A stretch of DNA of 64,000 bases from Pseudonocardia sp. T1-2H. GTDB taxonomy: Bacteria; Actinomycetota; Actinomycetes; Mycobacteriales; Pseudonocardiaceae. The notes beneath the pieces are model-generated. The model was not told the DNA's origin, ran no database searches, and worked only from the letters and a program-made list of their open reading frames with translations. How positions within the stretch are numbered: the first letter of the stretch is position 1; each line of letters starts with the position of its first letter. Of the stretch, positions 61,528 through 63,716 are shown in pieces. The stretch spans positions 5,766,001-5,830,000 of the forward strand of contig NZ_JBBPCL010000001.1 of the NCBI RefSeq assembly GCF_038039215.1. The letters run 5' to 3'. The translations under genes were made by a program, and so were the position numbers.

Positions 61528-62076
<549 letters not shown>

Positions 62077-62103: not shown

Positions 62104-62469
62104 TCAGTTCCAGTCGAGTCCGCCGCGTCGCCACACGTACATGTAGGCGAAGCCGACGGTGATGATGAACAGCACGATCTCCACCAGCCCGAACACGCCC
62201 AGCGCGTCCGCGGTCACCGCGAAGGGGTAGAGGAAGACCATCTCGATGTCGAAGAGGATGAACAGCATCGCCGTGAGGTAGTAGGCGACGGGCATCCGGC
62301 CGCCGCCCACGACGGGCTGCGGCGAGGGCTCGATCCCGCACTCGTAGGCGTCCAGCTTCGCGCGGTTGTACCGCCGCGGGCCGATGTAGGGCGCCGCGGT
62401 CACGGAGAAGAGCGCGAAAGCCCCCGCGAGGGCGAACATCAGCACCAAGGGGAGATAGGGATCGAGCAT
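62104..62469 (-). CDS. nuoA: NADH-quinone oxidoreductase subunit A
   Basis: The 121-residue protein has three membrane segments and the conserved KLDAYECGIEPSPQPV loop, with FILFDIEMVFLYPFAV. It begins the nuo operon. The upstream 90 bases show no strong promoter, so transcription may start farther upstream at the menJ relic. Confidence 0.96.
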   Translation of the reverse strand: MLDPYLPLVLMFALAGAFALFSVTAAPYIGPRRYNRAKLDAYECGIEPSPQPVVGGGRMPVAYYLTAMLFILFDIEMVFLYPFAVTADALGVFGLVEIVLFIITVGFAYMYVWRRGGLDWN

Positions 62470-62558
62470 CGTGCACCTTCGTCGTCTGCACTGCTACGTG
62501 TGTGGATCGATACCGAGCGTGGTGGGGACCATAAGTGCCGCTCGTCACCCCGCCGAGG

Positions 62559-62753
62559 TCAGGACAGGCTTACCCGGCGATCTTGCGGCCGGTGCGCGCC
62601 TGGTCGTGGCGGGTCCTTCTCGAGCAGCAGCACGTCGAGGCCGGCGCGGGCCTGGGAGTCCGCGGCGGTGGGCCCCGCCGGACCGGCACCGACCAGGATG
62701 ACGTCGGCCTCGGATCCGGTCGGGGCGCCAGTGGTGGGTTCGGGCGCGTCCAT
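62559..62753 (-). pseudogene. geranylgeranyl reductase (menJ-like) N-terminal relic
   Basis: The frame starts with a ribosome binding site AAGGAG and ATG 62753 and reads SEADVILVGAGPAGPTAADS then RAGLDVLLLEKDPPRPG, the FAD-binding start of the family that saturates the menaquinone tail. It then becomes unrelated and stops after 64 residues; the family is about 400 long. In the next frame, RHDQARTGRKIAG ends at a TAA, a likely C-terminal remainder, so an internal deletion is suspected. Mycobacterial menJ sits in the same neighbourhood of grcC1 and menG. Two Rex-like operators lie directly upstream. Confidence 0.65.
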
Positions 62754-62760
62754 TCGGCTC

Positions 62761-62802
62761 CTTGTGAACTGGTTCACGAGGTACTTGTGAACTGTTTCAC
62801 GA
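62761..62802. promoter_or_regulatory. tandem Rex-type redox operators
   Basis: CTTGTGAACTGGTTCACGA (62761-62779) and CTTGTGAACTGTTTCACGA (62784-62802) are two near-identical palindromes at a 23-base step. The first contains the perfect repeat GTGAAC-TG-GTTCAC. Both fit the Rex operator TTGTGAAnnnnTTCACAA with one mismatch at the right end (two in the second). They lie just before the menJ relic and 290 bases before nuoA, so Rex is expected to repress this transcript when NAD+ is high. Two full turns and two bases separate the sites, allowing paired binding. Confidence 0.78.
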
Positions 62803-62858
62803 AGTCCGGCGATAAGTCCAGAGAACCCCCGCACCACCGGCGGGCGAACCTCAGGGGG

Positions 62859-63563
62859 TCAGCTTTCGTCCGGTTTGCGGGCCCGGTGCAGGGCGACCGC
62901 ACCGCCCGTCAGGTCCCGCCACGCGGCGTCGGTCCAGCCCGCCCCGATGATCCGCCGCGCGAGCTCCGGCTGGGTGGGCCAGGCGAGGATCGAGTCCGCG
63001 AGATAGGTGTAGGCCTCGGGGTTCGACGACACCCGCCGGGCGACGGCCGGGAGCACCCGGCGGAGCATCCCTTCCTGGTAGACCGCCCGGAACGGGGTCC
63101 ACGTGGGGGTGGAGAACTCGCACACGACGAGCCGTCCGCCCGGCCGCGTCACCCGGGCCAGCTCGCGCAGCGCGAGGTCCGTGTCCGCGACGTTGCGCAG
63201 CCCGAAGGAGATCGTGACGGCGTCGAACACGCCGTCCGCGAAGGGCAGGTGCAGCGCGTCCGCGGCGACCTTCGGGACCGGGCGGGCCGCGCCGGCCTTC
63301 AGCATCCCGAGCGAGAAGTCCGCGGCGACGCACCATGCGCCCGAACGGCCGAGCTCGACGGTGGAGACCGCGGTACCGGCCGCGAGGTCCAGGACCCTCT
63401 CCCCGGGGCGCAGGTCGAGCGCGCGCCGGGTCATGACCCGCCAGCGCCGGTCCTGCCCGCCGGAGAGGACGGTGTTGGTGACGTCGTACCGCCGCGCGAC
63501 GCCGTCGAACATCGACGCGACGTCGCGGGGGTCCTTGTCGAGATCGGCCCTGGCCACGGACAC
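62859..63563 (-). CDS. menG: demethylmenaquinone methyltransferase
   Basis: The 234-residue class I methyltransferase has the UbiE/MenG signatures [55 protein letters not shown] and [16 protein letters not shown]. It methylates demethylmenaquinone to menaquinone with SAM, the last step of the pathway. GTG 63563 gives the family N-terminus; an in-frame GTG at 63557 is also possible. Confidence 0.93.
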
Positions 63564-63607
63564 GACCCTACGGGGCGGCCCGTTCCCCGCGCCTGCGGAC
63601 GTGAGAT

Positions 63608-63650
63608 GAACACCAGCGCTCTTCGATCTGGGGCCGGCCCACTGGTGTTC
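63608..63650. repeat. intergenic inverted repeat
   Basis: GAACACCAG (63608-63616) pairs with CTGGTGTTC (63642-63650) across 25 bases that contain the palindrome GGGCCGGCCC. It lies between the end of the glycosyltransferase gene and the start of menG, and might end transcription of the former, though it lacks a T-run. Confidence 0.5.
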
Positions 63651-63716
63651 CTCATGAACGCGCCCATGCCGTGCAGGGCGATCCAACGGTGGTCGTAGGC
63701 GCACACATCCGTATCG

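Follow-up and report, generated by a model that had tools for sequence, protein, structure and literature searches.

Putative tandem Rex operators ahead of the nuo genes in Pseudonocardia sp. T1-2H: a doubled site beside an altered promoter hexamer

Two near-identical palindromes stand in tandem ahead of the complex I (nuo) genes in the window, that is, the whole stretch of 64,000 nucleotides of Pseudonocardia sp. T1-2H analysed here, and judging from their sequence they are very likely bound by Rex. In our assessment, it is highly probable that they are genuine Rex operators which originated by local duplication, Rex lowering the nuo transcript at a low NADH/NAD+ ratio and being released by NADH. 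According to the mechanism proposed, Rex dimers seated on both palindromes when NADH/NAD+ is low would hinder RNA polymerase in starting, leaving or passing, and less transcript would run through a menJ remnant into nuo; as NADH rises, Rex would be released, complex I would be made and NADH consumed.

All the genes concerned lie on the minus strand, where the order is the end of menG, 56 nt, the two operators, the sequence AAGGAG, the ATG of a truncated menJ frame, nuoA, nuoB and more nuo genes, the operators being placed between menG and the truncated menJ frame and upstream of both nuoA and nuoB. The upstream neighbour menG (demethylmenaquinone methyltransferase, 62859-63572) was recognised on the frame 62859-63704 (NF001241, 384.5 bits, cut-off 327), with its stop codon at 62861-62859 and a start codon that is not fixed. 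On the other side, nuoA (62104-62469; NF005922, 181.8 bits, cut-off 155) and nuoB (61528-62076; NF005012, 258.2 bits, cut-off 116), together with nuoD, confirmed with NCBIfam among the further nuo genes, make this a respiratory, NADH-oxidising target. The closest named relatives of NuoB are four Pseudonocardia records (93-97%).

The operators belong to a direct repeat of 22 nt (62761-62782 and 62784-62805, 91% identity, 23 from start to start), within which the operator-like cores, of 18 bp each and spaced by 23 bp, share 17 of their 18 bases. Copy 1, which RNA polymerase reaches first, occupies 62785-62802 on the minus strand and reads TCGTGAAACAGTTCACAA on the nuo strand (TTGTGAACTGTTTCACGA in forward-strand letters), while copy 2, at 62762-62779 on the same strand, reads TCGTGAACCAGTTCACAA (forward TTGTGAACTGGTTCACGA); by position, copy 2 overlaps the AAGGAG ahead of the menJ remnant, its final base serving as the second base of that hexamer. 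The earlier note had described two near-identical palindromes of 19 bp matching the Rex consensus, and the match holds, each core having a single mismatch to the Rex operator TTGTGAANNNNTTCACAA, but the length is 18 bp and the symmetry is imperfect: as read from the sequence, the second base is asymmetric in both copies and so is an inner pair in copy 2. Allowing up to two mismatches, both copies were the only matches within the window, the mean over 100 dinucleotide-preserving shuffles of it being 0.00, and the 7.0-Mb genome contained four distinct places, compared with 0 for the reversed control pattern. A looser genome scan (16-bp core, up to three mismatches) gave, among the matches listed, 350 per strand where the control had 172; since half of this is background, only the tight matches are informative, and the looser scan was kept out of the regulon calls.

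The genome also encodes the regulator. A rex gene, whose absence had been named in advance as fatal to the proposal, is present (G000:C1 5872442-5873269; NCBIfam NF003992, 343.8 bits, cut-off 226), so that the proposal survives on this count, and the frames which follow it carry hemA, hemC and hemD domains. Solved Rex chains align to its product over about 200 residues, including the stretch RKDLSY, which we take to be the recognition region of Rex. Besides the two copies at nuo, the tight places comprise one before rex-hemA (G000:C1:5873441-5873458, two mismatches), 171 nt upstream of the called rex start, and one (L002:1501-1518, one mismatch) that precedes by 66 nt the ATG of a gene of the WhiB family, presumably wblE-like by resemblance.

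This set matches what has been described in Streptomyces avermitilis. There, rex-hem, wblE and nuoA1-N1 are among the genes bound and repressed by Rex, cyd and atp likewise being targets, and the consensus is backed by gel shifts (PMC5355995). Moreover, the nuoA1-N1 operator was documented there by gel shift, footprint and ChIP, as well as by a rise of nuoA1 RNA in the absence of rex (PMC5355995). Therefore, with rex-hem, wblE and nuo all being Rex targets in S. avermitilis, this kind of control is already known. The two systems have in common a Rex operator upstream of the nuo operon, but that of S. avermitilis is single and extends from -42 to -16, over the -35 side, whereas the window has two copies, and the rex operator is at 77 nt there, as against 171 nt from the called start here, a greater distance that, like its two mismatches, counts against the proposal. 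The same source tempers the suggestion that oxygen limitation would reveal the regulation: loss of rex raised nuoA1, yet under limited oxygen both strains followed a similar time course of nuoA1 (PMC5355995), which weakens the oxygen-limitation part of the earlier claim.

Conservation of the site was followed first within the genus, where a MenG search of 62 genomes gave matches in 60; the 60 stretches obtained, plus the window, amount to 61 loci from 60 genomes (G015 being counted twice). An operator was found upstream of menJ/nuo in all 54 loci with nuoA in reach and in two more, the five loci without operator having no nuoA in the stretch either. All 64 copies, which were selected at up to one mismatch, read TCGTGAANNNNTTCACAA on the nuo strand, and none with two or three mismatches occurred in the same stretches. 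The single operator is the common form (48 of the 56 operator-bearing loci), the tandem being present in 8/61; an exact pattern search for the tandem in a smaller, overlapping set retrieved it from 4/60 genomes. Among 80 named actinobacterial loci, which overlap in part with the genus set (three Pseudonocardia in both), 68 had, in the 2.6 kb ahead of nuoA, an operator with up to two mismatches; of the 12 others, L038 and L047 are truncated where the contig ends, close to menJ or within it, and L060 covers only about 1 kb upstream. A rex gene was found in 37/37 searched operator-bearing genomes and in 6/12 operator-free ones (4/10 without L038 and L047), an association with a Fisher p of 2e-5 (37/37 versus 4/10), to be read with the rows being not independent, since related species recur, and with some incomplete metagenome bins in the survey. 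Since four operator-free genomes have rex, the gene does not require an operator upstream of nuo. Three loci from Antrihabitans, Rhodococcus and Gordonia (L065, L084 and L087) carry rex, with no operator in the 2.6 kb ahead of nuoA. Among the papers listed in the literature searches, none dealt with Rex operators in Pseudonocardia or with a joint control of nuo by Rex and IdeR.

These surveys also bear on the identity of the binding protein, which could in principle be a regulator of the Crp/GlxR type. The site pattern of Crp-type proteins is TGTGAN6TCACA, and TGTGAACTGGTTCACG, as read from the sequence, fits this looser pattern with one outer mismatch. Nevertheless, the inner GAA/TTC, unneeded by Crp, is kept in 64/64 genus copies (chosen at up to one mismatch), the remaining tight matches in the genome belong to rex and the WhiB-family gene, and rex accompanies the operator in every genome searched, all of which make a Crp/GlxR-type regulator in place of Rex hardly credible.

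As to the origin of the doubling, the flank before copy 1 resembles the bases before the single operator of relatives, the flank after copy 2 resembles those after it, and the spacer GAGCC of one tandem locus (G031) resembles the GGAGC after copy 2. The simplest account would be a 23-bp tandem duplication of an ancestral operator plus a few following bases. Copy 1 is identical in 8/8 tandem loci and copy 2 in 7/8, and the 14 specified bases are intact in either copy of all eight, with spacers gtacc in four, gaacc in three and gagcc in one; since the middle bases are conserved too, the conserved specified bases are no strong sign of selection. In a quick tree based on MenG and NuoA together, the tandem state needs two changes, and a constraint holding the eight tandem loci together was not rejected (AU p 0.474). 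The tandem would thus have arisen once or twice, the shared middle bases favouring one origin.

It is possible, if rather unlikely, that just one copy matters and that the other is a neutral product of slippage: 48/56 operator-bearing genus loci manage with a single copy, the middle bases are conserved between the copies as in recent common descent, and the 23-bp spacing is out of helical phase. The earlier idea that this spacing would put two dimers on nearly the same face of the helix is not borne out, the calculated angle between dimers being about 69 degrees at 10.5 bp per turn. Retention of the 14 specified bases by both copies while the spacer varies argues against a neutral copy, as does the occurrence of operator pairs elsewhere, namely at 31-33 bp in 8/80 named loci (Amycolatopsis, Prauserella and kin), with dimers -17 to +51 degrees apart. 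In the pairs found before nuoA in Amycolatopsis, Prauserella, Saccharomonospora, Actinokineospora and Actinophytocola, the two operators follow a TACACT hexamer; they differ from the window in their spacing of 31-33 bp, in the intact TACACT and in middle bases which are not the same in both copies, menJ being either upstream of the pair or undetected in the stretch. The locus of Actinokineospora inagensis (L013) is compact: the stretch ahead of nuoA carries TACACT, an operator pair spaced by 31 bp, TTAGGGCCACCTAA and then TAGGGT.

The frame that follows the operators is a remnant. It spans 62559-62753 on the minus strand (64 codons plus stop, ATG 62753-62751) and represents an N-terminal FAD-binding piece of the geranylgeranyl reductase MenJ, 34 residues from the N-terminal part matching at 82%; its start and its ribosome site (AAGGAG, 62758-62763, minus strand, read from the sequence) are intact. 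Between the last codon of menG and nuoA there are 393 nt in the window, 392 in G026 and 366 in G082. In the genus, menJ is kept at this place in 26/54 loci, and 28/54 have no full menJ. When the window was compared with the menJ-bearing loci G033, G013, G069 and G025, only the last 17-26 nt before nuoA aligned; the fifth such locus, G020, matched over 11 nt at another place. Elsewhere in the genome, a full-length reductase 36% identical to MenJ was observed (L152, G000:C1:2367041-2368237).

Ahead of the operators, a candidate distal promoter, P1, could be recognised by comparison, since TAGACT or TACACT ends 9-13 nt upstream of the operator in 48/48 single-operator genus loci, letter shuffles giving an expectation of 0.36 of 56 loci for the hexamer, and TACACT is similarly placed in Amycolatopsis, Actinokineospora and others. 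If this hexamer is a -10, the operator spans about +4 to +25, and such would be the ancestral state, an operator just within the transcript of a promoter with a TA[GC]ACT -10. This arrangement is much like the cydA1 footprint of S. avermitilis (-3 to +25; PMC5355995) and unlike nuoA1-N1, since the genus operator lies downstream of the -10-like hexamer and not on the -35 side. In the window, however, the place of the putative ancestral -10, where relatives with a single operator have TAGACT or TACACT, is taken by TGGACT (62815-62820, minus strand); the hexamer is TGGACT or TGGACA in 8/8 tandem loci, none of which has a TANNNT between -70 and +90 relative to the first operator. A start at P1 in the clade of the window is therefore putative, with no canonical -10 by the operators. 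The earlier placement of the operators at the start of a menJ'-nuo transcript is thus consistent with the hexamer of the 48 single-operator loci and called into question by its alteration in all eight tandem loci and by a second module before nuoA.

In accordance with the altered hexamer, the sites might be Rex operators and P1 be dead in this clade, in which case Rex on its two sites would be a double roadblock to transcription reading through from menG, and a proximal promoter, P2, would mainly drive nuo; we regard this as a tentative alternative, with the odds against it. The contrast between 8/8 tandem and 48/48 single loci speaks for it, as do the conservation of the P2 pair in all eight tandem loci and the S. 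avermitilis wblE operator, which lies at +108 to +135 (PMC5355995). A scan of 62470-62920 for sigma-70 promoters and terminators found nothing, neither P1 nor P2, so that its lack of a P1, which would agree with a dead promoter, is paralleled by the lack of a P2. Moreover, the eight loci share one or two histories and include two near-copies (G025 and G065), so the loss of P1 counts as few events, and P1 may still work through other sigma factors or weak -10s.

The proximal module consists of an IdeR half-site-like box (TAAGCCTGTCCT, 62561-62572, minus strand, with the core change AGG to AGC) and, 27 nt after it, the candidate -10 TATGGT (62528-62533, minus strand). AAGG/TTAGG-N4-CCT stands directly before nuoA in 51/54 genus loci (0.85 with shuffled letters). 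Once the AAGC variant of the window is admitted, 52/54 have the box with TANNGTC 26-28 nt behind it (0.0 in shuffles), a pattern drawn up after the sequences were seen. The window copy, TAAGCCTGTCCTGA, departs from the 14-bp IdeR half-site TTAGGNNNNCCTAA by lacking the AGG core, and taken alone it is no better than chance. A gene for an iron-dependent DtxR/IdeR protein was found (L161:1492-2223; NF053665, 313.9 bits, cut-off 290), and the full iron-box search of the genome gave two matches at one mismatch and 0 in the control. The Pseudonocardia form of the P2 box had three matches in the same genome, the nuo box included, against four in the control, so that its own genome cannot tell what binds it. 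In the nuo promoter of Saccharopolyspora erythraea, IdeR binding to a half site is reported as confirmed (PMC8464063), and the named Saccharopolyspora loci show TTAGGTTCGCCT; the core AGGN4CCT before nuoA is common to that species and the genus, the window having one change in it and binding there being putative. Crossiella (L012) has an operator at either place, before menJ and before nuoA, with an IdeR-like box following the one at nuoA.

A start at P2, directly before nuoA, would place the box at about -51 to -40 and probably provides part of the nuo transcript. According to PMC10317159, genes repressed by IdeR have the box over the start or the -10, and activation at bfrB proceeds through upstream boxes, by analogy with which the position of the P2 box suggests activation. 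A more far-reaching proposal would combine both modules for the nuo genes of Pseudonocardiaceae, namely a distal promoter repressed by Rex in response to NADH/NAD+ and a proximal one activated by IdeR and iron, with the -10 lost and the operator doubled in the clade of the window, where Rex would be a double roadblock on menG transcripts; taken as a whole, this is improbable and is put forward as speculation.

Rex control of nuo being known, the doubled site, the altered promoter and the nearby iron-sensor-like site are the new details. The role of IdeR at half sites is called open in PMC10317159, and the fixed place of the box before a second -10-like hexamer bears on that question. Furthermore, these loci form a natural series for the evolution of a switch, with one or two operators, spacings of 23 versus 31-33 bp, the hexamer kept or altered and menJ kept or lost, each state of which has sequenced relatives.
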